The notes beneath the pieces are model-generated. The model did no database searches. It was not told the origin of the DNA and saw nothing but the letters and a program-made list of their open reading frames with translations. A stretch of DNA of 55,612 bases from a virus: positions 1 to 55,612 of the IMG/VR virus record IMGVR_UViG_3300031576_000053. One strand, written 5' to 3'. How positions within the stretch are numbered: position 1 is the stretch's first letter; every line of letters starts with the position of its first letter. This document shows positions 7,371 through 52,039 of the stretch, piece by piece. The position numbers and the translations under genes were made by a program.

Positions 7371-7666
7371 CGTTCGTCCTTGTTGCTGTCGTCTGTCGGT
7401 ACGTTGTGTGGAACGGGATCGCGCTCCGTGACGCTCAATACGCGCCTCGGAATGCAGACGATAATCCACCGCCCGCCGTCCGCCTGCTTCGCCAGCACGT
7501 CCATGCCTTTCGCGCTGCATCGCTTCGACCAGATCGGTGCAGGCTCGGCGGCTGACGCGGCCTTGCGCTCCTTGGCGGCGCCAACCTTGTCGTTGTAGCC
7601 CACCATCGTCCCGACGAAAAGATAGGCGAGGCAGAGGAAGGCGGCGATCAGCGCGGTGCGGATCAT
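7367..7666 (-). CDS. Membrane-anchored or exported small protein
   Basis: A 99-residue protein. The N-terminal hydrophobic segment (residues 3-22, IRTALIAAFLCLAYLFVG) is a signal anchor or uncleaved signal. The rest is soluble, with two Cys (RCSAKG, IVCIP) that could pair in the periplasm. Both ends overlap neighbouring genes. A superinfection-exclusion role is possible but untested. Confidence 0.62.
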   Translation of the reverse strand: MIRTALIAAFLCLAYLFVGTMVGYNDKVGAAKERKAASAAEPAPIWSKRCSAKGMDVLAKQADGGRWIIVCIPRRVLSVTERDPVPHNVPTDDSNKDER

Positions 7667-8922
7667 TTAACCTCCGCGAACAGCGGGGCATCTGAGGCAA
7701 TCCGTCTGCGCGCGATCTCGCAATACTCCGGGTCTATCTCGATGCCGACGGCCGAGAAGCCTTCCAACTCGGCGGCTTTGAGCGTCGAGCCGCTGCCCAT
7801 GAACGGGTCAAGAACCGTGCCGCCCTTTGGCGTCACCAGCCTGCAGAGGTAGCGCATCAGGTCTGTGGGCTTCACGGTCGGATGGTAGTTGCGGTTGCTG
7901 CGGTTGCTGCGGTTGCGCGGGTTGTCGCCACCTGGACCGTCAGACTTCACGCGGTCGGCGTCCCGCTTCGGCTCAAAATGGCGCAACCCGTCCTCGCGGT
8001 CATGCCGGTCGGCCTTGGTGCAGTAGAAGAAGCGTGCCGCGCTGCCAGAATCGCCTTGGAATGTACTTCCTTTTTCGTCTACGTTCCCGGCAAACGCGCC
8101 GTAGGTGGTGCGAAATTTGTCGCTACCACGTCGATACACTGGCGCGGCAGCTCCAGACGGGAATAGCGCAACTACTTCCTCGCTGCCGTCGTGGATCAGG
8201 TTGGCGGGCCAGCGGCCTAGCGCATCACCGCCACGCGGTCCTGGTGTTGCAGAGAAGTTCGTTGCTCCACGATCTGCGTAGGTTTGGAACTCGGTGCGCT
8301 CGCCTTTCCTCTGGCCACCACCAGCAAGCGTTCCTGATCCTCTCGACGTGCAACGACCAGCAGGGAAAGCGGCCAGCCTATCTTCTTCGCTCAAATGCTC
8401 GATACGGCAAGCGTCGATGTTGAGTGCCCCGGCGCCATGCTTGCGCCAGTTCTCCTCGACGGTGCCGATCAGCGGTTTGCGGGCAACGCAGATAGGTTCC
8501 CATGCTGGCTTGAGCGCGGTGCCGCCCCACGGCCCGTTGTGTGACTTCGGAAAACCTGACCCGTAGACCCACATCACCGTATCACGGATCTCCCAGCCCG
8601 CGTCCTCGATTGCCACAGCTAGCCGGTGATAGGTGCGCGTGCCGCCGAAGGCCAGCAGGTAGGCACCTGGCTTGGCGATGCGGAGAGCAGCCTGCCAAAG
8701 CGCGGTCTGGTGCGCTATATCTCCGCCATCCCACGCCTTCCCCATGAAGCCAGTCGTGATCCTAGCGCGACCAGATTCGAGGTTGACCGACGCCTCTCCG
8801 GTGCCGCCCTTCTTGCTAGTGGTTAGGTGGTAGGGCGGGTCGGTCACGATGGCGTCAATGCTGCAGGCGTCCATCGCGGCCATGCCTTCCCGGCAATCTT
8901 GGTTGAGGATGCGGACGGTCAT
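7663..8922 (-). CDS. DNA methyltransferase, beta-type (DPPY)
   Basis: A 419-residue amino-methyltransferase acting on adenine-N6 or cytosine-N4. The catalytic motif TDPPYHLT is at residues 27-34 and the AdoMet-binding motif DPFMGSGST at about 372-380, followed by GIEIDPEYCEIA. Catalytic motif first, AdoMet site last is the beta-class order. The middle is the target-recognition region. There is no restriction partner nearby, so it probably protects phage DNA or regulates. Sequence specificity cannot be read from the protein. Confidence 0.92.
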   Translation of the reverse strand: MTVRILNQDCREGMAAMDACSIDAIVTDPPYHLTTSKKGGTGEASVNLESGRARITTGFMGKAWDGGDIAHQTALWQAALRIAKPGAYLLAFGGTRTYHRLAVAIEDAGWEIRDTVMWVYGSGFPKSHNGPWGGTALKPAWEPICVARKPLIGTVEENWRKHGAGALNIDACRIEHLSEEDRLAAFPAGRCTSRGSGTLAGGGQRKGERTEFQTYADRGATNFSATPGPRGGDALGRWPANLIHDGSEEVVALFPSGAAAPVYRRGSDKFRTTYGAFAGNVDEKGSTFQGDSGSAARFFYCTKADRHDREDGLRHFEPKRDADRVKSDGPGGDNPRNRSNRSNRNYHPTVKPTDLMRYLCRLVTPKGGTVLDPFMGSGSTLKAAELEGFSAVGIEIDPEYCEIARRRIASDAPLFAEVK

Positions 8923-16302: not shown

Positions 16303-16950
16303 ATGGAGCTTGTTTGCTTCTCCGCGGGCCGTGCTGGCCGAACGTTGCTGCCATCTAAGTTGCCGCTGGGTATTGCGGGGCGGATGATACTACTGGTGCC
16401 GCACGGCCAACGCGGTGACTACGAGCGCTTCGGCAACCGTAACGTGCAAGAGACACCTGAGGGCGTGACTGGCATTGCGCGGCGCCGACAGTGGTGGCTA
16501 GAACAAACTGCTGCCGATAAACTCGTGATGCTAGATGACGACCTCCGCTTTGACACTCGCCGCGAGGATGATCCAGAGAAGTTTCTCGTGTCAACCTTTG
16601 ACGAGGTATCGCTGCTGTTCCGAGACATAGAGACGCAGCTGGACCGCTTTATCCACTTAACGGTCACGCCGCGCGAAGGCGGCAACCACACCGGAGCAGA
16701 AGGGCGCTACATGGAGGTCGGGCGCGCTACGCGCGTACATGGCTTGCGCCCGCGCCGTATTCGTGAGCTCGGGTGTCGCTACGATCACCTGCCGGTCATG
16801 GAAGACCTTGACATGAAGTTGCAACTCCTACGGCTCGGCCATCCGAACCTGATTGTGAACTATATGGTGCAGGGTCAGGGACAATCAAATGCGCCCGGCG
16901 GGTGCTCCGTGTACCGAACCCCAGAACTCCACGCGCAAGCCGCAGCATGA
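16303..16950 (+). CDS. Glycosyltransferase, GT-A type, resembling DNA-hypermodification (TET-associated) enzymes
   Basis: A 215-residue protein. GIARRRQWWLEQTAADKLVM is followed by a DDD metal/nucleotide-sugar motif (Asp78-80). VMEDLDMKLQLLRLGHPNLI and a Gly/Asn-rich GQGQSNAPGGCSVYRT follow near the end. This order recalls phage glycosyltransferases that add sugars to modified DNA bases. Relatives, as I remember them, extend about 50 residues further; here the frame stops at 16950, overlapping the next ATG. Early position beside replication genes argues for a DNA or host target rather than the virion. No hydroxylase or base-modifying partner is visible. Confidence 0.6.
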   Translation: MELVCFSAGRAGRTLLPSKLPLGIAGRMILLVPHGQRGDYERFGNRNVQETPEGVTGIARRRQWWLEQTAADKLVMLDDDLRFDTRREDDPEKFLVSTFDEVSLLFRDIETQLDRFIHLTVTPREGGNHTGAEGRYMEVGRATRVHGLRPRRIRELGCRYDHLPVMEDLDMKLQLLRLGHPNLIVNYMVQGQGQSNAPGGCSVYRTPELHAQAAA

Positions 16951-27776: not shown

Positions 27777-28243
27777 TTATGGGTGCTTTAATTTAGGCGT
27801 CCATTTCATGCTGCCGTCGCCTTTTTGATTCAAGCGCATCAGCTTGCGATAGATTCTGAATCTCATATTGAGCACAGCCGACGAGAGAGGATGCACACCC
27901 TGACCGAGAAGAGTGTCCGTGAAAGATAAGTAAAGTAATGCGCGCTCTTTTTCAATACGAGATAAGGCGATAAAGACCTAAGAAAACGCACACTGGCATT
28001 GCTATGGAAATCAAGAGAGAAATAGGGTTTACATCCAGCTCGATGATGCCACGGTCTCAGTTTGCCGCCGAGTTTGTTTTGTATGGCTTTGAGCACCGAG
28101 ATTTCGGTGTTGCCGATATACACGCGTCGCGTCCACACTACATGGTTGACGCCACTGGAGCGTTTAAGACTTCCGGAAATTGTGATGCCACCTTCCCCAT
28201 CGAAAAATCCTGCAATATAGGCGGTGGATAAATGCCTGACCAT
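27777..28243 (-). pseudogene. LAGLIDADG homing endonuclease with a frameshift
   Basis: The start at ATG 28243 (GGAG before it) gives HLSTAYIAGFFDGEGGITIS, a clear LAGLIDADG motif. The open frame stops at 27863. From about 27930 a -1 frame continues the expected end: GQGVHPLSSAVLNMRFRIYR, then KLMRLNQKGDG, stopping at 27777. HPLS and LNQKG endings are usual for this family, so one indel splits the gene. AT-richer than its neighbours and antisense to the head operon. Confidence 0.75.
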
Positions 28244-28459
28244 AGCGTTCTCCGACCTCATGGATATATCTCCATCGTTGGAGATGGGATAAAACAAGAG
28301 TATGACACACTTTCTTGCGTTCATTGCGGCAAGCATTGGATGGTGGTGCCTGGATCTGGGCGCAGGCGTGGCTGGTGCATGAAGTGCAACGGGCCACATT
28401 GCGGCGGGCCAAAATGTTGGACGTGTAGGCCGCTAGAGGAACTGATCTACAGGGGCTGA
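28232..28459 (+). CDS. Cys-rich zinc-binding protein
   Basis: A 75-residue protein. CVHCGKHWMVVPGSGRRRGW, then CMKCNGPHCGGPKCWTC, gives eight Cys/His ligands able to bind two zincs. The start overlaps the 5' end of the opposed homing endonuclease by 12 bases. Similar small zinc proteins occur in other phages between head genes. Function unknown. Confidence 0.65.
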   Translation: MPDHSVLRPHGYISIVGDGIKQEYDTLSCVHCGKHWMVVPGSGRRRGWCMKCNGPHCGGPKCWTCRPLEELIYRG

Positions 28460-30388: not shown

Positions 30389-31705
30389 ATGTTGCACAAA
30401 GCAAAGGCACTTCGCGAGGAGCGCGCCAAAATCGCGAAGACCATCAGCGACAACCTCGACCTCATCCAGAAGGACGAGACCGAGGAGGCGCGCAGGCAGG
30501 AGCTGATCGAGAAGAACGAACAGCTTTGGAAGGAAGTCGAGACCAAGAAGCGCGTGATCGACCAGATCGAGCGCCAGGCGGATCTCGAATCCGAGCTGAA
30601 CGACCGCAAGGGTCATCTCCAGCCCAATCCGAACCTCTCGGACGATCCGAAGGAGCGCAAGGAGCAGCAGAAGCTCGCCGTCGAGGCGTACATGCGCTTC
30701 GGCGCCGAGGGGCTCTCGGAGGAGGGGCGGGCGATCATCATGCCGAACACGAACGCCGCGCGAGCGGCGATCGCGGACTGCGTGCGGTCGCTCAAGGGGA
30801 TGTCGCGCGAAGTGCGCGACCTCGCCACGACGACCTCCGGCGCGGTGCTGCCGAACGAGTATTGGGACGACATCGAGAAGTCGATGCTCGCTTTCGGCGG
30901 GATGCGGGAAATCTCCCGCACCATTCGCACCGCGACGGGGAACTCGTTCATCATGCCGACGATGAACGACACCGCCAACGCGGCGACGCTCGTCACGGAG
31001 GCCGGCACGAGCGCCGGGGTGGATCCGACGCTCTCCAGCCTGACGTTGGGCGCATTCACGTATCGCTCCCGTATCAATCTTTCGCGGGAGATGCTGCAGG
31101 ACGCGAGCTTCAACGTCGACGCCTGGGTGCTCGGGCCGGATGGGCTGTCGCAGCGGCTCGCGCGGGGGCTGAACACCGCCTTCACGACGGGGGACGGTTC
31201 CTCGAAGCCGCTAGGCGTGATGGTGGCGACCTCCTCGGGGCTGACGATCAACGACGGCACCGCGATCAACTACAACGACTTTGTCGACCTGGAACACGCG
31301 GTCGATCCGGTGTACCGCCGGAACGGGCGCTACATGTTCCACGACGACTTGCTCAAGTCCGCGAAGAAGATCAAGGACACGCAGAACAACCCGATCTGGA
31401 TGAGCGGGCTCACGCTGCGTGCGCCGGACACGATCCTCGGCTATCCGTACACGGTTAATCAGGACGTGGCGCAGCTCAACCCCGCGGGCGGGGCGGGCGC
31501 GGCCGGCGACAAGGTGATGGCGTTCGGGGACTTCACGAAGTACATCATCCGCGACGTGGTCGGGGACGGGTTCCCGGTGATCCTGCGGTTGATCGAGCGC
31601 TATGCCGAGCTCGGCCAAGTGGCGTTCCTGCTCTTCAGCCGGCACGACGGGGATCTGCTCGACGCGGGCACCGACCCGATCAAGCACGCCATCACCCCGA
31701 GCTGA
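30389..31705 (+). CDS. Major capsid protein, HK97 family
   Basis: A 438-residue protein with AAGGAG before the ATG. Residues 1-115 are a charged coiled-coil delta/scaffold domain (EERAKIAKTISDNLDLIQKD) that the protease should remove near there. The HK97 fold follows: SGAVLPNEYWDDIEKSMLAF, ATGNSFIMPTMNDTANAATL, and SRINLSREMLQDASFNVDAW near 235. An internal Gly-rich NPAGGAGAAGDKVMAFGDF precedes the final domain. Confidence 0.94.
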   Translation: MLHKAKALREERAKIAKTISDNLDLIQKDETEEARRQELIEKNEQLWKEVETKKRVIDQIERQADLESELNDRKGHLQPNPNLSDDPKERKEQQKLAVEAYMRFGAEGLSEEGRAIIMPNTNAARAAIADCVRSLKGMSREVRDLATTTSGAVLPNEYWDDIEKSMLAFGGMREISRTIRTATGNSFIMPTMNDTANAATLVTEAGTSAGVDPTLSSLTLGAFTYRSRINLSREMLQDASFNVDAWVLGPDGLSQRLARGLNTAFTTGDGSSKPLGVMVATSSGLTINDGTAINYNDFVDLEHAVDPVYRRNGRYMFHDDLLKSAKKIKDTQNNPIWMSGLTLRAPDTILGYPYTVNQDVAQLNPAGGAGAAGDKVMAFGDFTKYIIRDVVGDGFPVILRLIERYAELGQVAFLLFSRHDGDLLDAGTDPIKHAITPS

Positions 31706-31760: not shown

Positions 31761-31788
31761 GCCCCGGCTTACGGGCCGGGGCTTTTTT
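31761..31788 (+). terminator. Rho-independent terminator after the capsid gene
   Basis: Perfect 8-bp stem GCCCCGGC/GCCGGGGC, loop TTACGG, followed by six T residues (31783-31788). Another hairpin (GTCGCCC ... GGGCGAGGC) precedes it. Expected to enrich capsid mRNA relative to downstream genes. Confidence 0.8.
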
Positions 31789-32704: not shown

Positions 32705-33040
32705 ATGCCCGCCGGGTTGGCCGTCGGTCGCCTTCGAGAGAAGGTTACGATCCAGAGCCTGACGACTGTCCGCGACGCTCACGGCCAGCCGATCGAGACT
32801 TGGGGCACGTTCGCGGCGTGGCGCTGCGAGATCGCTCCGATTCGCGGGCGGGAATTCTTCGCGGCGCGGCAGTTCCAGGCCGAGACGACACACAAGCTCA
32901 CGGGGCACTGGATCAGCGGCGTGCTGCCGACGATGCGGATCTCGCATGGCAGCCGGATCTTCCGGATCGAGGCCGTGATCAACGTCGGGGAGAGGAACCG
33001 CGTGCTTGAGTTGATGTGCGCAGAAACGCTTGGCGGATGA
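32705..33040 (+). CDS. Head-tail joining protein (SPP1 gp16 / HK97 gp7-type)
   Basis: A 111-residue protein. VGRLREKVTIQSLTTVRDAH, ETWGTFAAWRCEIAPIRGRE and MRISHGSRIFRIEAVIN match the phage head-tail stopper family. The next gene begins with ATG 33037, overlapping its stop. Normally the gp10-like gene comes next; here the glycan cassette starts instead. Confidence 0.88.
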   Translation: MPAGLAVGRLREKVTIQSLTTVRDAHGQPIETWGTFAAWRCEIAPIRGREFFAARQFQAETTHKLTGHWISGVLPTMRISHGSRIFRIEAVINVGERNRVLELMCAETLGG

Positions 33041-33771
33041 AATTGCCGTTTGGGAACGTCGAGCCGGAGTGGGCCGGGGCGACGGTTGCGATCATCGGCG
33101 GGGGGCCGAGCCTGACGCAAGAACAGGTGACGGTCTGCCGCGGGCGGTGCCGCGTGATCGCGGTCAACACGTCCTACCTGCTCGCGCCGTGGGCCGACGC
33201 CCTGTATTTTTGCGACGAAGCGTGGTACGGCTGGCATCGCGAGGCAAAGGCGTTCCGCCGGTTCGCGGGGATAAAGGTGGCGCTCGCAAACGCGCGCACC
33301 ACGTACTCGGAGCGTGGAGTCTTGAACGGCGACCCGGCGATCAGGGTGCTGCGAAACTATGGAGGGCCGCCGGAGTTCGTGGGGCTGTGCGAGAACCGCG
33401 ACGGCGTCTACACGGGGAGGAACAGCGGCAACCAGGCGATCCAGCTCGCCGCGCACCTGGGGGCGAGGCGCGTCCTGCTGCTCGGGTTCGATATGCGCGC
33501 CCAGGGCGCGAAGACGCACTGGCACATGGCGCACAAGCGCCCGACGGACCCGAATGACTTCAATCAGATGCTCACGTGGTTCGCGCCGCTCGTCGAGCCC
33601 TGCCGCAAGCGCGGGATTGAGGTCGTTAACTGCACGCCGGGGAGCGCGGTCGAGTGCTTCCCGAGGGCGACGATAAACGATGCCTTGGCGGCTGACGAGA
33701 GCGAGCGCGCCGGGGAGCGCGCGCGTCGGGAGGTGAATCAGAAGCAGGAATACTTTTTCCGCACGTCTTGA
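33037..33771 (+). CDS. DUF115-like Rossmann protein, start of the glycan cassette
   Basis: A 244-residue protein. The N-terminal GATVAIIGGGPSLTQEQV is a Gly-rich nucleotide-binding turn, and ADALYFCDEAWYGWHREAK, GVYTGRNSGNQAIQLAAHLG and VLLLGFDMRAQ follow. This pattern is seen in DUF115-type proteins linked to sugar transfer (motility-associated glycosylation) and in phage genes of unknown role. It overlaps genes on both sides. Probably in the glycan pathway. Confidence 0.68.
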   Translation: MKLPFGNVEPEWAGATVAIIGGGPSLTQEQVTVCRGRCRVIAVNTSYLLAPWADALYFCDEAWYGWHREAKAFRRFAGIKVALANARTTYSERGVLNGDPAIRVLRNYGGPPEFVGLCENRDGVYTGRNSGNQAIQLAAHLGARRVLLLGFDMRAQGAKTHWHMAHKRPTDPNDFNQMLTWFAPLVEPCRKRGIEVVNCTPGSAVECFPRATINDALAADESERAGERARREVNQKQEYFFRTS

Positions 33772-34580
33772 TGGCCCGCGCATGGTGCCTGATCCGCGAG
33801 CAGGTCCACTATAGGCGGGAAGCGTTCCTCCAAGGGCTCGCCGCCGCCGGATATGAGATAGCTCAGAGCGCGCGCGAGGAGGGGAATCCGAACTTCTCTC
33901 GCTCCGGCGCGGGCGACGTGCTGGTGATCTGGAACCGTTATGGGCACTACGAGGATTGGGCGCGGGAGTTCGAGCGCCGCAGCGGACGGGTGCTGGTGGC
34001 GGAGAACGGCTACCTCGGGGACGATTCGAACGGGCGGCAGCACTACGCCCTCGCCGTCGGGCAGCATAACGGCGGCGGGCGCTGGCACGTCGGGGGGCCG
34101 GAACGGTGGCGGGCGCTCGGGATCGGACTAAAGCCCTGGAGGACCGATGGCGGGCACATCCTGATCTGCCCGCAGCGTGGGATCGGCCCCAAGGACTACG
34201 TGCAGCGCGCGAACTGGCAGCACAGGCTCGCCGACCGGCTGAAGGGCGTTACCAAGCGTCCGGTGCGTATCAGGCCGCACCCGGGGAACGTGCCGCAGGC
34301 CGAGGCTCGGGCGTCGCTCGCCCGCGACCTGGATGGCTGTTGGGCGATGGTGACGTGGGCCTCGGGCGCGGGGATTCACGCGCTGGTCGCCGGAGTGCCG
34401 GTGTTCTATGAGGCGCCGTACTGGATCCTTGCCGGGGCGGGGGAACGCAGCGTTCTGGACATCGATAATCCGCACTACCTCGCGCGGGAGGAAGCGTTCG
34501 TAAAGTTGTCGTGGGCTCAGTGGACGCTCGCTGAGCTGGCGACCGGAGAGCCTTTTCGCCTTCTTGCCGCGTTGCCGTGA
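33771..34580 (+). CDS. GT-B-like sugar-transfer protein, paralog 1
   Basis: A 269-residue protein. ATG 33771 overlaps the preceding stop (TGATG). VLVAENGYLGDD is followed later by VRIRPHPGN and WAMVTWASGAGIHALVAGVP, the 'S-G-x-x-x-A-L--G-PV' element used by GT-B and capsule-type transferases to bind the donor. The next three genes share this plan, so they form a tandem family. Donor and acceptor unknown. Confidence 0.65.
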   Translation: MARAWCLIREQVHYRREAFLQGLAAAGYEIAQSAREEGNPNFSRSGAGDVLVIWNRYGHYEDWAREFERRSGRVLVAENGYLGDDSNGRQHYALAVGQHNGGGRWHVGGPERWRALGIGLKPWRTDGGHILICPQRGIGPKDYVQRANWQHRLADRLKGVTKRPVRIRPHPGNVPQAEARASLARDLDGCWAMVTWASGAGIHALVAGVPVFYEAPYWILAGAGERSVLDIDNPHYLAREEAFVKLSWAQWTLAELATGEPFRLLAALP

Positions 34581-35419
34581 AGTTCGTCTTCTACCGTAGC
34601 CAGACGGGCCGCTCAAGGATGATCCTCGGTGCGGTCAAGGAGGGCCTTGCGAAGCTGGGACATGGCATCGTCGAGGTCCACGAGAGCGAGTACCGCGGGG
34701 TCGAGGCGGATGTGGCCGTTCACTACGGCCTCTGGGGTAATCTGCGGCGCATCCAGCAGGAGTACGCGGCGGCGGCGAAGTCCGTCTTGATCGACCTCGG
34801 GTATTGGGGCCGGGTCGAGGGCGGGAAGCTCGCCGGCTACCACCGCATCGCGGTGAACGCGCGGCACGCGACGGGTTACTTTCAGCGCTTCAGGCACTCG
34901 CCGGACCGCTTCCGGCGCTTCGGGATCGAGCCGAGGCCATTCCGTCGCGACGGGGGCCACGTGCTGCTCTGCGGCATGAGCGGTAAGGCGGCATGGGTCT
35001 ACGGGCTCGAGCCGCAGCAGTGGGAGCGGGCGGCAATCGCGCGGCTGCGGGCGCATACCGCACGCGCGATCCGCTACCGGCCGAAGGACTCCTGGAAGGA
35101 CGCGAGCCAGCTTGAGGGAGCAGCGTTCCACCAGGAGCGCGTGGACATCGGCGCGCACCTCGCGGGCGCTTGGGCGGTGGTGACGCACCACGGGAATACG
35201 GCGCTCGACGCGCTAATAGCTGGCGTGCCTGCTTTTTGTGAAGAGGGGCTCGCCTCGGCGCTCGCAAAACCGGCGCTAGAGGAGATTGAGTCTCCGTTCT
35301 ACCCGGACGAGGGCGCGCGCGACCGGCTGCTCTGGGACGCGGCCTGGACGCAGTGGCGGCCGTGCGAGATGGCGGACGGCTCGGCGTTTCGCTACCTGTT
35401 CGAGGAAGGGTTGCTTTGA
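34577..35419 (+). CDS. GT-B-like sugar-transfer protein, paralog 2
   Basis: A 280-residue protein. It begins KFVFYRSQTGRSRMILGAVK, has FRRFGIEPRPFRRDGGHVLL midway, then IRYRPKDSW, and AWAVVTHHGNTALDALIAGV near 215. Each piece has a counterpart in paralogs 1, 3 and 4. It ends with a Trp-rich WTQWRPCEMADGSAFRYLF, also shared. Its ATG overlaps the preceding stop. Confidence 0.65.
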   Translation: MKFVFYRSQTGRSRMILGAVKEGLAKLGHGIVEVHESEYRGVEADVAVHYGLWGNLRRIQQEYAAAAKSVLIDLGYWGRVEGGKLAGYHRIAVNARHATGYFQRFRHSPDRFRRFGIEPRPFRRDGGHVLLCGMSGKAAWVYGLEPQQWERAAIARLRAHTARAIRYRPKDSWKDASQLEGAAFHQERVDIGAHLAGAWAVVTHHGNTALDALIAGVPAFCEEGLASALAKPALEEIESPFYPDEGARDRLLWDAAWTQWRPCEMADGSAFRYLFEEGLL

Positions 35420-35478
35420 AATTCCAAGGTATCGTGCGCGAGGCTCAAAAGCGTGAAGCGCTATGGAGTGGAGTTTGA
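35416..35478 (+). CDS. 20-residue micro-ORF bridging two paralogs
   Basis: Reads MKFQGIVREAQKREALWSGV. TTG 35416 overlaps the previous stop and its TGA overlaps the next TTG, giving TTGA at both ends. Its first residues resemble the KFVF/KLAF starts of the flanking genes. It may be a translational bridge rather than a working peptide. Confidence 0.35.
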   Translation: MKFQGIVREAQKREALWSGV

Positions 35479-36320
35479 AGCTCGCGTTCTACGCGTCTGA
35501 CGGAGAGGGCGATAAATTGCTCGTCGCGGCGGTGATGGCCGGTGCCGCGCGCCACGGCGATGAGGCGAGATACATCCCGTGGCCGAGCTACGATGGCGTG
35601 ATCGCGGAGGCGGACGCCGTGGCGTGTTACGGCGTGCGGGCGTCTACCCGCATCATCACCGACGCCTATCGGCGCGCGGGGAAGCGCTCGCTTTACTTTG
35701 ATAAAGGCACGTGGGGTCGCGGCATCTATACGCGGGTCGCCGTAGACGCGTGGCAGCCAACAGCGTATTTCCGATGCGGACGACCGAGCGATCGGCTGGA
35801 GAAGTCCGGCATCGTACTGAAGCCGTGGCGCGGCGCGGCTGGTGCGAAGATCATCTTCGCGGCGACGACGCAAACCTGGCTCGATTTTTATGACATCGGG
35901 CATGGGCGCAGGCTCGACGAGCTGATGATCGGAATGCTCGCTGGCTTGGAACCGGGCATTGTCGTTTACCGCCCGAGGCCGGCCTACGCGAGGAAACACC
36001 CGGAGCTCTGCGGACCCATCGCTGGGGCGGAGCTCTCGGACCCGACGCAACCGCTGGCCGAAGCGCTCGCCGACTGTATGCTGCTCGTGACAATCGGCTC
36101 GAATACGGCGGTAGAGGCGCTCGCTGCAGGAGTCTCGGTGCTCGTGCTAGGGGACAATCCGTGTCGATTGCTCAACTGGCGATCCGTGGATGTAGAACGC
36201 GAACGGCCTCAGTTCTTCGCGGACCTCGCGTGGTGCCAGTGGAAGCTCGATGAGTACCTCTCCGGTGAAGCGTGGGCGGACATCAAGGAAACGATGAAAC
36301 GGACGGTGCAATGCGTGTAA
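35475..36320 (+). CDS. GT-B-like sugar-transfer protein, paralog 3
   Basis: A 281-residue protein from TTG 35475, which aligns KLAFYASDGEG with the starts of paralogs 2 and 4; ATG 35463 is the alternative. It shares VDAWQPTAYFRCGRPSDRLE with paralog 4 and ends its core with LLVTIGSNTAVEALAAGVSV. VVYRPRPAYARKHPELC matches the acceptor-side element of the family. Confidence 0.65.
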   Translation: MKLAFYASDGEGDKLLVAAVMAGAARHGDEARYIPWPSYDGVIAEADAVACYGVRASTRIITDAYRRAGKRSLYFDKGTWGRGIYTRVAVDAWQPTAYFRCGRPSDRLEKSGIVLKPWRGAAGAKIIFAATTQTWLDFYDIGHGRRLDELMIGMLAGLEPGIVVYRPRPAYARKHPELCGPIAGAELSDPTQPLAEALADCMLLVTIGSNTAVEALAAGVSVLVLGDNPCRLLNWRSVDVERERPQFFADLAWCQWKLDEYLSGEAWADIKETMKRTVQCV

Positions 36321-37765
36321 TTTTTTGGGTAGCGGAGAAGGACAGAAATTACGGCTTGGCGGAGGCCGTTGCGGAGAGCGCGAAGGTACACGGCGACGAG
36401 GTCGAGATCGTGCCGCAGCGCATGTTCCAGGGCGTGCGCGGCGACGCGGACGCCGGGGCGTGCCTCGGCGTCAAGCGCGCCGGCAAGCGCCTGCTTCATG
36501 CACACCTGCAGGCTGGGCGTCATTTTCTGTATTTCGACAAGTCGTATTTTGACAGGGCGAATTACGTGCGCGTCTCCGTGGACGCCTGGCAGCCAACGGC
36601 GTACTACAGGCAGCAGCGCCCGGCTGATCGCTTCGAGCGCTTTAGGCTGACGATCGAGCCGCGCTGCGGCGGCGGCAAGGAGATCCTGTTCGCCGGGTCT
36701 TCGCAGAAGTACGCGAATTTCCACGACCTCGGCGACGCGACGGAGTACGCGGGGCGCGTCGTGCGGCGTCTGAAGAAGTCGATGAAAGTCCACGAGCGGC
36801 CTATCGTCTACCGGCCAAAGCCGAGCTGGGTCGCGCACCACCCCGAGGAGTGCAAACCGATCGAAGGGACGCGCTTCTCCGCGCCCGGGACGCCGATACG
36901 TGAAGAGTTGAAAAACTGCCATCTGCTCGTGACGCATGGCTCGAACGCCGCCGTGGACGCGCTCCTCGCCGGGGTTCCGGTGATGGCGCTTGGCTCGGGG
37001 ATCTTTAACCGGATGTCGATGGGCGAGCGCTACGATCTGATCGAGAACCCATTCTTTCCTACCGATGAAGAGCGGCGGCAGTTTTTCTATGACTTGGCGT
37101 ATTGCCAGTGGACGCTTGACGAGTTCCGCTCGGGCGAGGCGTGGGCGGACCTGCGCGGCACGTTCGCGAAGCTCGGGCCGGTCCAAGGGGCCGTCGGCAT
37201 GGAGGAGAGCAATAGCCTCGCCCATGTCGTGGGCCTGTACCGCAAGATGCACGAGCACCCGAAGTATTTCCGGGGCCGCGAGGCGCATAAGCACTTCTCC
37301 AAGATCGGGCGGCTGGTGCTCGCGCACGGCGCGAAGTCCATCCTCGACTACGGCTGCGGCAAGGGCGAGCAGTACGGGCCACCGATCAGTTTGCAGGAGG
37401 CGTGGGGCGTGGAGGTCGCCTGCTACGACCCTGGCGTGCCGCGCTTCGAGAAGATGCCAGAGGGGGCCTTCGACGGCGTGATCTGCTGCGACGTGATGGA
37501 GCACATCCCGGAGCCGCACGTCGGAGAGATTCTGCGCGATATTCTCTGCCGCGCCCGCAAATTCGCGTTCCTCTCGATTGCTACGATGCCGGCCTCAAAG
37601 ACGTTGCCGGACGGGCGAAACTGCCATCTGACGGTGCGACCGGAGGCATGGTGGCGCGAGCAGATCCAGGCCGCGCGCGTCGCGGTAGGAGCTGCGGAAC
37701 TCCAGATCGAGGCGGCGATCTACAACGCGCCGGTCGCGCCACCTGAAAAGGAGGATGACGATTGA
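36311..37765 (+). CDS. GT-B-like sugar-transfer domain fused to a SAM methyltransferase
   Basis: A 484-residue fusion from ATG 36311. Residues 1-290 are paralog 4 (VSVDAWQPTAYYRQQRPADR; CHLLVTHGSNAAVDALLAGV). Residues about 310-484 are an AdoMet methyltransferase: LDYGCGKGEQYGPP is motif I, and GVICCDVMEHIPE follows. The methyltransferase half is duplicated as the next, separate gene. The fusion implies transfer of a sugar and methylation of the same product. Confidence 0.75.
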   Translation: MRVIFWVAEKDRNYGLAEAVAESAKVHGDEVEIVPQRMFQGVRGDADAGACLGVKRAGKRLLHAHLQAGRHFLYFDKSYFDRANYVRVSVDAWQPTAYYRQQRPADRFERFRLTIEPRCGGGKEILFAGSSQKYANFHDLGDATEYAGRVVRRLKKSMKVHERPIVYRPKPSWVAHHPEECKPIEGTRFSAPGTPIREELKNCHLLVTHGSNAAVDALLAGVPVMALGSGIFNRMSMGERYDLIENPFFPTDEERRQFFYDLAYCQWTLDEFRSGEAWADLRGTFAKLGPVQGAVGMEESNSLAHVVGLYRKMHEHPKYFRGREAHKHFSKIGRLVLAHGAKSILDYGCGKGEQYGPPISLQEAWGVEVACYDPGVPRFEKMPEGAFDGVICCDVMEHIPEPHVGEILRDILCRARKFAFLSIATMPASKTLPDGRNCHLTVRPEAWWREQIQAARVAVGAAELQIEAAIYNAPVAPPEKEDDD

Positions 37766-38313
37766 CGCTGGAGGAGCTTCACCAGCTTTATCGCCGCACG
37801 CACGAGCAGAATCCGAAGCGCTTTCTCGGCTACACGACGAAGCTCTATGTCGAGCCAATCAAGAGGCTCATCGAGGAGACGGAAGCGACCTCGCTCCTCG
37901 ACTATGGCAGCGGGAAGGGCGCTCAATATCTCGGTGGTCGCCGAGTGCATGAGCGCTGGGGCGGGCTGCTCCCTTGGTGTTACGACCCTGGCGTCATCGG
38001 ATTGAACGAGAGACCGCAGCGCAAGTTCGACGGCATGATCTGCTGCGACGTGATGGAGCACATCCCGGAGGAATTGCTCGCCGAGGTCATCGCCGATGTG
38101 TTCTCGTTCGCGGAGCGGTTCGTTTTGCTCGGCATTGCCACCGTGCCATCGCACAAGGTGACGGCGGACGGACGCGGCTCGCACCTTACCGTCAGACCGC
38201 CGGATTGGTGGATGTCGGTCATTGACAGGATGCTCCCGCCCCGATGCGCGCTTCCGCCGTTTCGGTGGGAGGCGTGGTTCACGGATGAATCGAAGATCGC
38301 GAGGAAAGGATGA
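37762..38313 (+). CDS. SAM methyltransferase, copy of the preceding fused domain
   Basis: A 183-residue protein. TTG 37762 overlaps the preceding stop (TTGA). LLDYGSGKGAQYLGG is motif I, with WCYDPGVIG and GMICCDVMEHIPEELL matching the fused copy closely, then GSHLTVRPPDWW. A probable small-molecule or glycan O-methyltransferase. The ribosome-site run AAGGAGGATGACGA before it recurs before the gene at 38360. Confidence 0.75.
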   Translation: MTLEELHQLYRRTHEQNPKRFLGYTTKLYVEPIKRLIEETEATSLLDYGSGKGAQYLGGRRVHERWGGLLPWCYDPGVIGLNERPQRKFDGMICCDVMEHIPEELLAEVIADVFSFAERFVLLGIATVPSHKVTADGRGSHLTVRPPDWWMSVIDRMLPPRCALPPFRWEAWFTDESKIARKG

Positions 38314-38360
38314 TTCGGCTTTTCAACGGCTGGAAGGCGCTCAAGGAGGATGACGACTGA
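38310..38360 (+). CDS. 16-residue leader-like micro-ORF
   Basis: MIRLFNGWKALKEDDD. Start overlaps the preceding stop and TGA overlaps ATG 38360. Its LKEDDD codons contain the next gene's ribosome site AAGGAGG, as do the codons for the EKEDDD end of the fused transferase. Likely only a coupling device. Confidence 0.35.
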   Translation: MIRLFNGWKALKEDDD

Positions 38361-39067
38361 TGGACAAGTTGCGCGTTTTCATCGGCTATGATGCCGATGA
38401 GACGGTGGCGCTGCACGTGCTCTCGCACTCCATCATGAGGCACGCGCGCGCCCCGGTTGCGATCACGCCGCTGTGCCTGGGCCAAGTGCCGATGACGCGG
38501 GAGCGGGCCGAATATCAGAGCACGGACTTCTCGTTCTCCAGGTTCCTAGTTCCGTATCTGTGCGGCTACGATGGGCGGGCAATCTTCATGGATTGCGACA
38601 TGCTCGCGCGCGCGGACCTCGCGGAGCTGCTGGCGCTGCACGACCCGTACCGCGCCGTCTCGGTGGTTAAGCACGAGTACGCGCCCAAGCCGGGGGACAA
38701 GTTCCTCGGCTACAAGCAGTCGCTCTACGGCAAAAAGAATTGGTCCAGCGTGATGATCTTTGAGAACGCGCTTTGCCGGGCGCTGACGCCGCACGTCGTG
38801 AACACGGCGAGCGGCCTGTTCCTTCATCAGTTCAAGTGGCTGCAGGACGACTCGATGATCGGCGCGCTGCCGGTCGAATGGAACCACCTCGTCGGGGAGT
38901 ATGAGCCGAACCCGAGCGCGAAGATGGTGCATTTCACGCTCGGCACGCCATGTTTCGCGGCCTACGCGAACTGCGAATTTTCGGCAGAGTGGCATGAGGA
39001 AAAGAACCTGATGCTGGACTACAACAAGGCGGGGGAGTTCTCACGCAAGGCGAGGACTGGGACTTGA
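38360..39067 (+). CDS. Glycosyltransferase, GT8-like (GT-A)
   Basis: A 235-residue protein. LRVFIGYDADETVALHVLSH, FSFSRFLVPYLCGYDGRAIF, then MDCDML, the DxD metal/nucleotide-sugar site near residue 75. WSSVMIFENALC and AKMVHFTLGTPCF complete the GT8-type fold. The natural donor in this family is a UDP- or GDP-sugar. Confidence 0.82.
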   Translation: MDKLRVFIGYDADETVALHVLSHSIMRHARAPVAITPLCLGQVPMTRERAEYQSTDFSFSRFLVPYLCGYDGRAIFMDCDMLARADLAELLALHDPYRAVSVVKHEYAPKPGDKFLGYKQSLYGKKNWSSVMIFENALCRALTPHVVNTASGLFLHQFKWLQDDSMIGALPVEWNHLVGEYEPNPSAKMVHFTLGTPCFAAYANCEFSAEWHEEKNLMLDYNKAGEFSRKARTGT

Positions 39068-39774
39068 GCGCTATCATGTCGGTGGAGGCGGTAGACAAAG
39101 GCGCATTCTGCAAGACCTGGGCTCGGCGCTGGCAGGATGCGCGGCCACAGCTCAAGGCGAAGGAGCCACACTCGGCTGTTCGTTCGGGCGTCGCTGATGC
39201 CGAAGCCTTGTCATTGCGCGTGCAGTTGAACAACGTGCGAACGTTAGACTTCGGTTGCGGTCACGGACGGAGCGCGCTCGGCCTCCTGCTTCATGGAGTA
39301 AACAACTACCTTGGCATAGACGCGCGCCTCCTGGCGATCGAGTTCGCCCGCAGGCTCTTTGCCGAGCAACCGGGCTATCAGTTCGAATACTTCGACTCGG
39401 CTAATGGTCGCTACAACAAGGGAGGCGGGCCTAAATTGTTTTTGCCTGTTACAGCCCGCTCCTTTGAGCTTGCCTTGGCGGTGTCGGTGTTCAGTCATGA
39501 GCCAGATGATGAGGTGGTGGCCCATTATCTGAGCGAACTGTGGCGAGTATTGACGCCGAACGGTGTGCTGGCATGCACCTGGATTACCAGTGCGCCTATG
39601 GATCATGCGGATAATCGTTTTTCCATCCGTACCCACGAGGGGATTTTCGCACTTCTGAACGCTTGGGCGGTGTCGGATTGTTGGGGAGCGGGGGAAGCGG
39701 GCGATCAATGGTGGACATTAGCCCACAAAAGTAACAAGTCGCCCACGGTTGCCGGGTCACATAACCATGCCTGA
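39064..39774 (+). CDS. SAM-dependent methyltransferase
   Basis: A 236-residue protein. TTG 39064 gives a TTGA overlap; ATG 39076 is a second choice. TLDFGCGHGRSALGLLLHG is motif I, YLGIDARLLAIEFAR motif II, and LYRVL-type SELWRVLTPNGVLACTWI the post-motif. A type-11-like class I methyltransferase. Somewhat less GC-rich than its neighbours, so it may have joined the cassette later. Confidence 0.78.
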   Translation: MSAIMSVEAVDKGAFCKTWARRWQDARPQLKAKEPHSAVRSGVADAEALSLRVQLNNVRTLDFGCGHGRSALGLLLHGVNNYLGIDARLLAIEFARRLFAEQPGYQFEYFDSANGRYNKGGGPKLFLPVTARSFELALAVSVFSHEPDDEVVAHYLSELWRVLTPNGVLACTWITSAPMDHADNRFSIRTHEGIFALLNAWAVSDCWGAGEAGDQWWTLAHKSNKSPTVAGSHNHA

Positions 39775-40567
39775 GATCGCGGTCGTTACCTCGTGCTCGG
39801 CGGCGGGCTGGGAGCAGTACGGTCGGGGCTTCGTCGAGACCTTCACGCGGTACTGGCCTGCCAATGTGGCGCTGTATCTTTGCTCAGAGGATCTCGGGCC
39901 ACGCCCGATCGACGCGCAACTGATCGACCTCGCGGCGTCGGAAGGCTGGCTGGCATTCGAGGCGCGACACCGCGATAACCAGCGCGCGCACGGACGGGCC
40001 CGGCAAGCTGGCGACATCGGCTGGACGCCTAACAAGATCAAGGCGGGTTACAACTTCCGTTATGACGCATTCCGCTTCGCGAAGAAGGTTTTCTCCATCG
40101 AGGCGGCGATGCGCGAAGTTGGCAGAGGCCGACTTCTGTGGGTTGACGCCGACGTGGTGACGTTCGCGCCCGTGCCGGAGGCGCTGCTTGACGAACTGCT
40201 CCCGATCGGAGCGGCGCTCTCGGCGCTGCTACGCGATGGCTATCATCCGGAGTGCGGCTTCGTCGGCTATAACTTGGAGCACGAGGCGTGCCGCGCTTTC
40301 ATCGCGGAGTTTGCGAGGCTCTACGCATCGGACGAGGTCTTCGCGCTCCAGGAGTGGCACGATTCCTGGGTCTTTGAGTGGTTGCGAAGGAAGATGGGCG
40401 TGCCGACGCACGCGATCCCGCACTGCTCGCGGCGGCATCCATTTCCGAATAGTGCGCTTGGGCGCGTGGCGGATCATTGCAAGGGAGATAGAAAGATCGC
40501 CGGCAGGACTGATCCGCGTGAGGTGTTCACGCACAGCGACATCCCATATTGGCGTGGTGCCGCGTGA
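39767..40567 (+). CDS. Glycosyltransferase-like protein (GT-A)
   Basis: A 266-residue protein from ATG 39767. IAVVTSCSAAGWEQYGRGFV opens the fold. GRLLWVDADVVTFAPVPEAL carries the DxD near residue 130. HPECGFVGYNLEHEACRAFI and LQEWHDSWVFEWL are the acceptor side. Overlaps its neighbours. Confidence 0.72.
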   Translation: MPEIAVVTSCSAAGWEQYGRGFVETFTRYWPANVALYLCSEDLGPRPIDAQLIDLAASEGWLAFEARHRDNQRAHGRARQAGDIGWTPNKIKAGYNFRYDAFRFAKKVFSIEAAMREVGRGRLLWVDADVVTFAPVPEALLDELLPIGAALSALLRDGYHPECGFVGYNLEHEACRAFIAEFARLYASDEVFALQEWHDSWVFEWLRRKMGVPTHAIPHCSRRHPFPNSALGRVADHCKGDRKIAGRTDPREVFTHSDIPYWRGAA

Positions 40568-41151
40568 TTCTTCCGGAGGAACTTGCCGCCGGCACCAGCA
40601 CGACGGTCGAGCAGGCGGAGCGCCGTATCAGTCGTTATGAGCGGACTTTTCGTTCCATAAGGCCGTGGCTACCGCCAGGATTGGTTCTTAATTTCCTGGA
40701 CATCGGTTGCGGCACTGGGGGGGTGGCGATGCGGGTGGCGGGTCATTATCCGAACGCGACCGCGCACCTGATCGACGGCGATGCTTGGGGCGAGAAATTC
40801 TCATACCGTCCAGACGGCAGGCCTTGGGCCGACGTGAAATTGGCGCTAAAGCTGTGGGCGAAATATCTACCGAACCGTGCCGTGCGCGCCTGGCCCCCGG
40901 ACCCGGCGTTGACGATCCCATGCGAGCTGATCTACTCGAACTGCTCCTGGGGGCACCACTACGCGATCGAGACTTATCTCGGTCTCGCGCGGCGGAGTCT
41001 GCAACCGGGCGGCACGCTGATCGTGGATTTGCGCGTCGGGAATATCGGCGAACATGGTCGCAAGGCGCTCGGGGCTTATTTCGCGCATGTCGCGGACATC
41101 GAGGTTGGCCAGAAAAAGTACGCCCGCACGGTGTGGAGGAATGCGCGATGA
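40564..41151 (+). CDS. SAM-dependent methyltransferase-like protein
   Basis: A 195-residue protein. GTG 40564 overlaps the preceding stop (GTGA). NFLDIGCGTGGVAMRVAGHY is motif I, AHLIDGDAW a motif II, and RRSLQPGGTLIVDLRVGNIG a late motif. Class I methyltransferase fold, substrate unknown, probably the cassette glycan. Confidence 0.75.
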   Translation: MILPEELAAGTSTTVEQAERRISRYERTFRSIRPWLPPGLVLNFLDIGCGTGGVAMRVAGHYPNATAHLIDGDAWGEKFSYRPDGRPWADVKLALKLWAKYLPNRAVRAWPPDPALTIPCELIYSNCSWGHHYAIETYLGLARRSLQPGGTLIVDLRVGNIGEHGRKALGAYFAHVADIEVGQKKYARTVWRNAR

Positions 41152-41303
41152 ACTTGGAAATGATAGGTAGTTTTATTCGACGGCTGGCGAAGCGCCATTT
41201 TCGAGCGCGGCTGCGGCACTTAAAGGTTACGACCGGACCGAGCAAGGCCGAGAAGCGGGCCGAGAGAGAAAAGAGTGCGCTGGAAGCTTCCCGAGGCAGA
41301 TAG
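41148..41303 (+). CDS. 51-residue basic protein
   Basis: A small Arg/Lys-rich helical protein (IGSFIRRLAKRHFRARLRHL and a charged tail). ATG overlaps the previous stop and its end overlaps the next gene by 29 bases. Could be a linker protein of the cassette. No family recognised. Confidence 0.5.
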   Translation: MNLEMIGSFIRRLAKRHFRARLRHLKVTTGPSKAEKRAEREKSALEASRGR

Positions 41304-41892
41304 CTACTTCGCGCCCCTGCTAACGGACGACGGATTCCAGATCGATCACCTGCGCGTCGCGCTTGGGTATGTGCGGGCCTGGCGCACGGCGGTCGATGGA
41401 GGGGCGCACGTCGGCACTTGGACCTGCTGGATGGCGCAGCGCTTCGGTCGTGTGTTGGCGGTCGAACCGGCGGAGGATGCCTTCGAATGCCTGTTCGCGA
41501 ACACGCGGCGGCTCGACAACGTGGTGCGGCTGCGCGCGGCGCTGGGCGCCGCCCCCGGGGTGGCCTCCGTGCTGGACGATGCGCGGCGTCCAGGTAATAC
41601 CGGGGCACGCTATCTCGGCCCTGGCAACGACGTGGAGGTTCTGCGTCTGGACGACTTGGAGCTGGAGGATGTGGACTTCGTCAAGCTCGACATCGAGGGC
41701 GGCGAGTTCCACGCGCTGCAGGGCATGGAGGCGACGCTGCGGCTCTGCAAGCCGGTCGTGTGCGTGGAGGAAAAGCATTTCGGCGAGCGCTTTGGCGTGC
41801 GACCTGGGGCGGCGCTGGAGTTCCTGCGCATGCTCGGTGCGCGCGAGGCCGAGGCGATCGGCAAAGACCACGTGTTCCTGTTCGACCACTGA
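41275..41892 (+). CDS. FkbM-family methyltransferase
   Basis: A 205-residue protein from GTG 41275. TAVDGGAHVGTWTCWMAQRF is motif I, VLAVEPAEDAFECLFANTRR motif II, VDFVKLDIEGGEFHALQGME the FkbM signature, then KPVVCVEEKH. FkbM enzymes O-methylate sugars or polyketides. It closes the glycan cassette, 11 bases before the tail-completion gene. Confidence 0.85.
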   Translation: MRWKLPEADSYFAPLLTDDGFQIDHLRVALGYVRAWRTAVDGGAHVGTWTCWMAQRFGRVLAVEPAEDAFECLFANTRRLDNVVRLRAALGAAPGVASVLDDARRPGNTGARYLGPGNDVEVLRLDDLELEDVDFVKLDIEGGEFHALQGMEATLRLCKPVVCVEEKHFGERFGVRPGAALEFLRMLGAREAEAIGKDHVFLFDH

Positions 41893-41903: not shown

Positions 41904-42458
41904 ATGGCTGATTTTAGGACGCAATGGAAGATAACCGGCCTGAAGGAGCTGGCAGAGTTTCTCAAAGACCTGCCGATGGATCTGCGCCGCGGCGTGGTCC
42001 GGAGGGCGCTGCGCAAGGCCGCCCTGCTCGTCGAAACGGACGCGAAGCGCCGGGTGCCAATCCTCAAGCCTCGTCTAATTAAGGGGCGGTCGGAGCTGGA
42101 TCCTAGGCGCACCCCCGGGACGCTCCTGAACGCGATCAGGACCGCGGGAGCGTTTAGCCCGGCTGGCGGCACGGAGGTGATCGTCAAGGTCGGCGTCAAA
42201 CGTCTTACGAAATCGGCCGTCGCCCGGTTCAAGCTGGCCAGCGGGAAGGGGGGGGCGTTCAACCCGAATGACCCGTTCTACGCAATGTACGTCGAGCGCG
42301 GAACCTCGAAGACGCCCGTTCAGGCGTTCATGCGTCCTGCTCTGGAGTCGCAGGGTTTCGCCGTGGTAGAGCGGTTCCGGGAGGAGTTCAGACGTGGCCT
42401 AGATGAATTCGCGAAGAAGTTATTGCTGCACAAGGGGCGGGCCGCCTCCGGGGCGTGA
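41904..42458 (+). CDS. Tail completion / neck protein, HK97 gp10-like
   Basis: A 184-residue protein. WKITGLKELAEFLKDLPMDL, VVRRALRKAALLVETDAKRR and AMYVERGTSKTPVQAFMRPA with a following helix are the HK97 gp10 pattern. It restores the standard morphogenesis order after the cassette. Confidence 0.87.
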   Translation: MADFRTQWKITGLKELAEFLKDLPMDLRRGVVRRALRKAALLVETDAKRRVPILKPRLIKGRSELDPRRTPGTLLNAIRTAGAFSPAGGTEVIVKVGVKRLTKSAVARFKLASGKGGAFNPNDPFYAMYVERGTSKTPVQAFMRPALESQGFAVVERFREEFRRGLDEFAKKLLLHKGRAASGA

Positions 42459-42865: not shown

Positions 42866-43282
42866 ATGCCAACGAAAGCGATGAAGTCGAAGGGCGTCCT
42901 GCTGCAGCGGTCCTCGGGTGGCAGCCCGGACGTGTTTGTGACGATCAGCGAGGTGGTGAGCTTTGACGGCCCGTCGAGGTCGCTGCCCACCGAGGACGCG
43001 ACGAGCTTCGACTCGACATGGCAGGAGCAGATCGCGGGCGTTCCGGACGGCGGGCAGTTGACATTCGGGCTGAACTACATCCCGAACAACGCGCAGCAGG
43101 CCGGACTGGAGGACGACCTGGAGAACGGCACCCTGCGAGCGTTCCGGCTCGTATACACGGACACGGACCTGTCGCGGAAGGAGTTCTCTGGCTTCGTGAC
43201 GGCGTTCTCGACCTCGTCGGGGAATCCGAACGCCAAGATCGCGGCGAGCGTGACGATCCGCATCAGCGGCGGAGCGAGCTAA
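42866..43282 (+). CDS. Major tail tube protein
   Basis: A 138-residue protein. SKGVLLQRSSGGSPDVFVTI, ISEVVSFDGPSRSLPTEDAT, DGGQLTFGLNYIPNNAQQAG and KEFSGFVTAFSTSS follow the phage tail tube (TIGR02126-like) pattern. AGGAG precedes the ATG. Polymerises around the tape measure. Confidence 0.85.
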   Translation: MPTKAMKSKGVLLQRSSGGSPDVFVTISEVVSFDGPSRSLPTEDATSFDSTWQEQIAGVPDGGQLTFGLNYIPNNAQQAGLEDDLENGTLRAFRLVYTDTDLSRKEFSGFVTAFSTSSGNPNAKIAASVTIRISGGAS

Positions 43283-46703: not shown

Positions 46704-47504
46704 ATGCCGACAAGGGGCGTATATGCAATTGAAAACGTAGCCAACGGGAAGCTATACATTGGCAGCTCGATCAATGTGGAACACCGTTGGCGCGTTCATA
46801 GAATGCAGCTCAAAGCCGGGACACACTGCAATCTATATTTACAGGCGGCTTGGATCGAACATGGAGAGAAGTCATTCACATTTCGTGTGCTTGTTGACAC
46901 TGCCGATGCTGATTTGAGTATTGTAGAACAGCGCGAAATTGACCAACGCGGCCTAGCGTTGCTGTACAACATCTTGCCATTAGCATATAGCGCCGGTGGA
47001 GTTCACAGGAGGCCAGAGACGATAGCGAAGCATCGTCTGTTGCGGCACACCGAAAAAACGAAGGTCCAGATGAGCGAAGCCCGTCGGCGGTTCCTTCAGA
47101 CCGATGCCGGCAAAGCTGCGGTTAAACGTTTTGTTGTCGCATCCTTGACTCCTGAAGTGCGGGGACGCATCAACGGAAAACTAAGAGCACAACGCCTAAC
47201 TCCAGAATATCGTTTGGCGAGGTCTCGAATGGCAAAGGAACGCGGGTTTCATGTTCCGTCAGGCACAAGTCAAAAAGGCCGCACACCAGGATTCAAACAC
47301 AGCGAGGCTACGCGAAAGAAAATGAGCGATAGCCAACTTCAATCATACGCCGCAGGGCGCTTTCGTGGTCCACACTCACCTGAACATAGGGCGAAGATTA
47401 AGGCTGCTTTGATCGGGAAAAGACGCTCGCCAGAGCAATGCGCAAATATCAGGGCTGGCATCATAGCTGGCCGTAGAAGTAGAGGTTTGAACGATGGCCG
47501 ATAG
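46704..47504 (+). CDS. GIY-YIG homing endonuclease 1
   Basis: A 266-residue protein. GVYAIENVANGKLYIGSSIN is the GIY-YIG core (here GVY...YIG), with a catalytic Arg in HRWRVH and a Glu near 78. NUMOD3-type DNA-binding repeats (RPETIAKHRLLRHTEKTKVQ; HSEATRKKMSDSQLQSYAAG; RSPEQCANIRAGI) follow. It starts just after a tail gene stop and overlaps the next tail gene by 11 bases. AT-richer than its surroundings. Confidence 0.9.
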   Translation: MPTRGVYAIENVANGKLYIGSSINVEHRWRVHRMQLKAGTHCNLYLQAAWIEHGEKSFTFRVLVDTADADLSIVEQREIDQRGLALLYNILPLAYSAGGVHRRPETIAKHRLLRHTEKTKVQMSEARRRFLQTDAGKAAVKRFVVASLTPEVRGRINGKLRAQRLTPEYRLARSRMAKERGFHVPSGTSQKGRTPGFKHSEATRKKMSDSQLQSYAAGRFRGPHSPEHRAKIKAALIGKRRSPEQCANIRAGIIAGRRSRGLNDGR

Positions 47505-51915: not shown

Positions 51916-52039
51916 ATGACTTGCTCGCCTGAACCTTCTTCGCGCGGCGAGCGCGTTTGCGCGCGGGCTTGCTTTTCGGCTTCGCGCGGAACGCCAGTAC
52001 CACGTCCGCGATCCGATCAAATTCCTTCGGCGGCTTCAT
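51908..52039 (-). CDS. 43-residue IS1595-associated protein
   Basis: A Lys/Arg-rich peptide, MKPPKEFDRIADVVLAFRAK followed by KPKSKPARKRARRAKK. Its ATG overlaps the transposase stop (ATGA). Very short basic proteins like this accompany phage IS1595-type transposases; the role is not known. Its end overlaps the opposed GIY-YIG gene. Confidence 0.55.
   Translation of the reverse strand: MKPPKEFDRIADVVLAFRAKPKSKPARKRARRAKKVQASKSSM

Follow-up and report, generated by a model that had tools for sequence, protein, structure and literature searches.

A few mycobacteriophages are reported to glycosylate their virions, which affects antibody recognition. In the Corndog-cluster (cluster O) mycobacteriophages, O-methyltransferase and glycosyltransferase (GT) genes are situated between the portal and protease genes (PMC4351075), and two further papers (PMC11600133 and PMC12363180, citing Freeman 2023) report that this module modifies the capsid and the tail tube. 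In the flagellin glycosylation islands (FGIs) of bacteria, GT and FkbM/S-adenosylmethionine (AdoMet) methyltransferase genes are inserted beside the gene for a structural protein (PMC4875605), and Maf works on flagellin in the cytoplasm (PMC13317340). Here we analyze a cassette of eleven genes, g1 to g11, in the head-tail operon of the virus record IMGVR_UViG_3300031576_000053 (the window, which is the whole record of 55,612 bases, classed linear). That phages may carry GT/methyltransferase modules in their structural operons is a known idea; this particular set is undescribed in the literature we searched, the coverage of which was partial. We consider it probable that the enzymes of the cassette, made late in infection, decorate a virion protein with a methylated glycan.

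The cassette occupies the interval between the genes for the head closure protein Hc1 and an HK97-gp10-like protein, where eleven intact open reading frames (ORFs), mostly overlapping, are found on the plus strand (Table 1). They encode one DUF115/Maf-type protein (g1), four GT-B paralogs (g2-g5, with g5 as a fusion to a methyltransferase), two GT-A-type enzymes with DxD motifs (g7 and g9) and, in g5, g6, g8, g10 and g11, a total of five AdoMet methyltransferase domains, as had been proposed from the letters of the sequence in the original prediction. The latter counted eleven genes of at least 150 bases plus two micro-ORFs; eleven is correct, but the micro-ORF at 41148-41303 itself exceeds 150 bases. 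Likewise, the gp10-like gene at 41904 was correctly located, although the term neck/tail-completion gene suits it better; it is followed by those for the tail terminator, tail tube, chaperone and tape measure. Start and stop codons overlap by 4 bases at the Hc/g1, g1/g2, g2/g3, g5/g6, g7/g8 and g10/micro-ORF junctions, and across the whole cassette neighboring genes either share 4 to 29 bases or stand 11, 43 or 46 bases apart. A promoter scan of the plus strand from 30 to 45 kb, which includes the cassette, recovered no promoter-like site. The two flanking genes are normally neighbors, as had been assumed: they are separated by less than 300 bases in 45 of the 68 contigs carrying both, and overlap each other in Pseudomonas phage Psp6, which is among the nearest relatives by terminase (52% identity to that of the window). 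A near-identity search against the records of the phage collection found nothing close to the window. In comparisons between related contigs the ratio of nonsynonymous to synonymous substitution rates of the cassette genes is mostly 0.05-0.25, indicating that they are under purifying selection and maintained as proteins.

Homologous cassettes are encountered within the head-tail operons of many other phages, numbering in the dozens. These loci (L005-L259) were obtained by searching viral contigs with g5, g7, DUF115 and GT-B queries, and the cassettes were placed using head, connector and tail profiles started from this window; single proteins retrieved two relatives (capsid) or none (g1), and alignment queries succeeded. 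The cassettes lie at varied points (MCP..Ad, Portal..Ad, Ad..Hc, Hc..gp10 and TT..MTP), implying that the common feature is the operon and not one insertion site. The very site used in the window, which the original prediction had proposed to look for in related phages, is shared by L206, L221, L237, L241, L244 and L259. In 75 of 80 intervals the cassette starts with DUF115, and all but one of 214 cassette genes (213/214) are on the same strand as the preceding structural gene. When the DUF115 loci were clustered at 90% identity into 108 non-redundant groups, 98 had a head or tail gene on the same piece and 60 were flanked by such genes on both sides, every one of these (60/60) on the same strand as both neighbors. 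As a control we used the family of the window's N6/N4 DNA methylase (80 loci, same flank), in which 9/80 had any structural gene and 0/80 were flanked; this control is imperfect, as hits that include the DUF115 loci went into the refinement of the structural profiles, but the contrast is nevertheless large. A second control using a TET-associated-glycosyltransferase (TAGT)-like gene of the window found no loci.

Smaller versions are seen in cultured phages. The Pseudomonas phages D3/PMG1 and Psp6 share with the window a DUF115 gene, which in them lies between capsid and connector. In Psp6, a DUF115 gene, an unannotated gene (whose PMG1 counterpart we read as GT9-like) and a methyltransferase gene are situated between the major capsid and connector genes; in PMG1 the DUF115 gene precedes the connector, and the gene read as GT9-like and a methyltransferase gene lie between Hc and gp10. 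These phages differ from the window in having two or three genes rather than eleven, and the GT-B array, the GT-A pair and FkbM were not detected in them. In the Caulobacter jumbo phage CcrColossus, gp126-gp130 encode DUF115, GT-B, GT-B, GT-A (g7 family) and methyltransferase proteins in the same order as the window. The DUF115 genes of P1 and P7 stand among genes named pmg and hdm. The Corndog-cluster module resembles the cassette in having GT and methyltransferase genes inside the virion structural operon, but differs in its portal-protease position, its four genes and its actinobacterial host. The cassette profiles gave no match at E 10 to the four Firecracker proteins gp33-gp36, and by such comparisons the enzymes of the window and of the Corndog cluster are not detectably homologous. 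Furthermore, the terminase relatives and the presence of an Rz-like spanin point to the window phage being a phage of Proteobacteria rather than an actinobacteriophage. Thus, the actinobacteriophage precedent invoked earlier holds for modules similar in kind, and not for homologous enzymes or for the host.

The first gene, g1, scores 31.2 bits against PF01973, the curated cut-off of which is 34.6, and 43 of 49 g1 homologs match this family at E up to 0.01. An assignment to the GT42 sialyltransferases (CstII) was not adopted, as the matches were weak (E 0.07-0.14) and mixed with ferritin matches taken as spurious.

The GT-B paralogs share 27-41% identity. Pfam returned nothing for g2, g3 and g9, nor did PHROG for g9; hence, alignments were built from homologs (A5 with 64 sequences and A6 with 55), and the structures of g3 and g9 were then predicted. 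The GT-B part of g5 reaches 18.7 bits against DUF6716, below the cut-off. Both predicted structures show transferase folds, the lack of which had been named in advance as a result that would speak against a glycosylation role. The g3 model has a clear KpsC/WbbB-like GT-B transferase fold, its nearest solved relatives being KpsC (GT107; 8fuw, Z 15.0, root mean square deviation 4.4, 244 aligned), WbbB (GT99, Z 13) and KrkA (GT140, Z 11), with other GT-B enzymes at Z of about 10 or less; g2, g4 and g5 are predicted by homology to share this fold. The retaining beta-3-deoxy-D-manno-oct-2-ulosonic acid (Kdo) transferases possess an invariant QXXXD motif, bearing the nucleophilic aspartate, and a (K/R)XHP motif that binds cytidine monophosphate (CMP) (PMC10148158, PMC12887879). 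Unlike KpsC, WbbB and KrkA, no window paralog has an intact QXXXD near the aligned position (g2 QRGIG, g3 MSGKA, g4 TTQTW, g5 SSQKY), and (K/R)XHP is retained only in g2 (RPHP), the others showing RPKD (g3), RPRP (g4) and RPKP (g5). We therefore do not interpret g2-g5 as Kdo transferases and assign no donor to them, since they agree with those enzymes in fold but not in catalytic signature. In a subgroup of homologs from other phages (alignment A8; e.g. L224, L243 and L005), Q-x-P-x-D and R-x-H-P are invariant columns, and a regular-expression census found both motifs in about 22 of 329 GT-B homologs of other phages; judging from these motifs, the A8-type homologs are candidate CMP-ulosonic-acid transferases. 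The GT-B array would add new structural relatives, with changed active sites, to the unusual double-displacement Kdo transferases. A host/prophage search of 399 genomes, from the order of a g7-bearing genome, with a GT-B profile returned nothing, and as it had no positive control it is uninformative.

The g9 model displays a clear GT-A fold with a DxD motif, and its matches to GT-A enzymes are tied at Z of about 14, namely BoGT6a (GT6, 14.6), PBCV-1 A64R (2p72, 14.6), GlyE and glycogenin (14.0). Among these A64R is a virus-encoded capsid glycosyltransferase, though from an algal eukaryotic virus and alike only at the level of the fold. The second enzyme of GT-A type, g7, is a putative one: it has a DxD motif with both aspartates invariant and matches Glyco_transf_8 weakly (E 0.04). 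With regard to the methyltransferases, the 14-mer AAGGAGGATGACGA, which contains a Shine-Dalgarno sequence, is present at 37748-37761 at the end of g5 (KEDDD stop) and again at 38343-38356 after g6 and before g7, where a short frame also ends in KEDDD. As it ends g5 and recurs after g6, this repeat suggests that g6 arose by tandem duplication of the methyltransferase domain of g5 and has an altered 3' end.

The FGI-like parts list, the location in a virion operon and the Corndog-cluster precedent together make virion glycosylation the most likely function. FGIs are bacterial and often include sugar-biosynthesis genes, none of which was found among the window ORFs scanned, but the components of the cassette (a Maf-type protein, chain-extending GTs, FkbM and other methyltransferases, and no clear membrane anchor) are those of the FGI toolkit for modifying a self-assembling protein. 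In the proposed scheme, the eleven genes would be read late in infection together with the connector and tail genes, and the DUF115/Maf-type protein, acting in the cytoplasm, would probably place the first sugar on serine or threonine of a structural protein. The GT-B and GT-A enzymes would lengthen the chain from host nucleotide sugars, leaving a head or tail protein with a short oligosaccharide whose hydroxyls the five methyltransferases might cap or vary. The altered particle surface could be of benefit in encounters with receptors, phage-binding molecules or proteases. The analysis establishes that the genes are intact, what folds and motifs they have, where they lie in the operon, that such cassettes recur and that selection is purifying; we infer from this the late co-expression, the attachment to a virion protein, the sequence in which sugars are added, their identity and the benefit. 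A hydrophobicity scan of g1-g11, with two membrane proteins as controls, detected no clear transmembrane segment, which fits cytoplasmic protein modification; the C-terminal serine/threonine tails of the capsid and tail tube proteins, inspected for a clue to the acceptor, showed no defensible pattern. The earlier proposal of a virion glycan is supported in part, by the predicted folds and by the same-strand association with head and tail genes. Certain observations weigh against it. No nucleotide-sugar synthesis gene was recognized among the ORFs scanned, so that host sugar donors would have to be used, and 43 of the 108 DUF115 clusters have no recognized GT or methyltransferase partner within 10 kb, to which contig ends and divergence contribute. 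In CcrColossus, unlike in the window, the set lies between tail and lysis genes, and the homologous set of Pelagibacter phage Mosig adjoins RuvC and ribonucleotide reductase genes, away from the head genes. Moreover, operon position alone could also bring in late genes that act on the host surface.

Such a late modification of lipopolysaccharide, capsule or S-layer, for instance against superinfection or re-adsorption of progeny, is unlikely but has several points in its favor. The GT-B folds are nearest to capsule/O-antigen Kdo transferases, and g7 has close homologs on bacterial chromosomes (53-61% identity), one of which, in Methylibium, adjoins an FkbM methyltransferase protein and a GT61-type protein (L272, 10729-12903 on the minus strand and 13174-14928), giving the family a cellular carbohydrate-modification context. 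None of the g7-centered bacterial loci has head or tail genes, and only 3 of 79 g7-centered viral loci show the head/tail-operon association, suggesting that the g7 family is also used elsewhere. Against host-surface modification, clear membrane segments are lacking, no flippase or polymerase is present among the eleven genes, and the cassette is embedded in the head-tail operon and not beside genes of lysogeny; the repeated same-strand association with structural genes, set against 0/80 flanked loci in the control, favors a virion target over both the host surface and DNA. We assign a low probability to the cassette acting on a non-virion protein (a scaffold, chaperone or host protein) or on a small molecule: the data identify no acceptor and many DUF115 genes are without recognized partners, but eleven enzymes favor an elaborate chain over a single regulatory mark, and the precedent of the Corndog-cluster phages is on the virion. 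Hypermodification of DNA, with the transferases glycosylating modified bases, is very improbable, since neither the TAGT-like gene nor the DNA methylase of this phage, which might suggest it, is part of the cassette, no TET dioxygenase was seen among the proteins scanned (from part of the ORFs of a perhaps incomplete record), FkbM and Maf-type families indicate sugar O-methylation and protein glycosylation, and the cassette proteins show no match to known families of DNA glucosyltransferases. Given the TAGT-like gene, DNA glycosylation by genes elsewhere in the phage may nevertheless occur.

Extending the virion-glycosylation proposal, we tentatively suggest, with less than even confidence, that DUF115-led islands of this type form a class, hitherto undescribed, that is widespread in phages of Gram-negative bacteria as a counterpart of FGIs, with duplicated KpsC/WbbB-like GT-B enzymes building variable, methylated and possibly ulosonic-acid-containing particle glycans; in some lineages these enzymes would carry both Kdo-transferase signature motifs, and in others altered active sites. 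If many phages of Gram-negative bacteria modify their virions via separate enzymes, particles bearing glycans may be commonplace, which would matter for adsorption, for the stability of phages, for their recognition by the immune system in therapy and for annotation. Numerous cassette-type genes are currently annotated as hypothetical proteins, or under the pmg and hdm names in P1 and P7. The cultured phages with small versions (D3/PMG1, Psp6 and P1) make virion glycosylation directly testable.

Table 1. Features of the cassette, its flanks and related genes in the window
Feature	Coordinates	Strand	Evidence
g1, DUF115/MptE-like (Maf-type) putative transferase	33037..33771	+	phrog_4603 'alpha-2,3-sialyltransferase' E 2e-45; PF01973 E 2e-7, below cut-off
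g2, GT-B paralog	33768..34580	+	~30% identity to g3-g5; RPHP motif, no QXXXD
g3, GT-B paralog, structure predicted	34577..35419	+	AlphaFold2 pLDDT 96.7, pTM 0.91; VIA Z 15.0 to KpsC 8fuw
g4, GT-B paralog	35463..36320	+	DUF6716 putative glycosyltransferase 28.1 bits, cut-off 27; 41% identity to g5
g5, GT-B paralog fused to AdoMet methyltransferase	36311..37765	+	Methyltransf_23 31.9 bits, above cut-off 27; phrog_24759 E 4e-25
g6, AdoMet methyltransferase, paralog of g5 C-terminal domain	37762..38313	+	phrog_24759 E 2e-20; 47% identity to g5 methyltransferase
g7, GT-A type transferase, DxD = DCD	38360..39067	+	phrog_28018 E 3e-49; D78/D80 invariant in alignment A2
g8, AdoMet methyltransferase	39064..39774	+	Methyltransf_12 E 6e-10
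g9, GT-A type transferase, DxD = DAD	39767..40567	+	AlphaFold2 pLDDT 93.3; D127/D129 invariant in 55 sequences
g10, AdoMet methyltransferase	40549..41151	+	Methyltransf_31/25 E ~1e-4, below cut-offs; LDIGCGTG motif
Micro-ORF, 51 aa, overlaps both neighbors	41148..41303	+	sequence
g11, FkbM-family methyltransferase	41275..41892	+	PF05050 E 4e-17, 63.3 bits, cut-off 22.7; phrog_8156 E 6e-27
Hc1 head closure, left flank	32705..33040	+	PF05521 E 2e-24; phrog_25
HK97-gp10/Neck1-like neck/tail completion protein, right flank	41904..42458	+	phrog_5 E 2e-15; PF04883 E 0.003, just under cut-off
Major capsid protein, HK97 fold, possible acceptor	30389..31705	+	PF05065 E 2e-48; phrog_10
Terminator-like hairpin 3' of capsid gene, 5' of connector genes and cassette	31761..31782	+	9-bp stem then T6
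Tail tube protein, downstream, possible acceptor	42866..43282	+	phrog_158 E 2e-22; PF16461
TAGT-like gene, early region, far from cassette	16303..16950	+	PF20691 E 1e-10; phrog_842
N6/N4 DNA methylase	7663..8922	-	outside cassette

A terminator is also annotated in PMG1 at the same place as the hairpin downstream of the capsid gene. A relative of the DNA methylase, with 84% identity over residues 3-174, is encoded on contig IMGVR_UViG_3300050139_000048. The same contig carries a DUF115-led cassette (L218), located between Ad and Hc, although its portal and connector are only 23-29% identical to those of the window. Homing-type endonucleases occur in or beside the structural operon at 27863-28399 (minus strand), 46704-47504, 51265-51915, 1515-2009 and 20600-21100, and comprise one weak LAGLIDADG, two GIY-YIG with NUMOD3 and two HNH versions; the PMG1 gene between Hc and the GT/methyltransferase pair also appears GIY-YIG-like by eye. 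Such endonucleases could have helped move cargo into the head-tail operon. Finally, an IS1595/ISXO2-type transposase is encoded on the opposite strand (52036-52956, minus), between the tail tip and tail-fiber genes.

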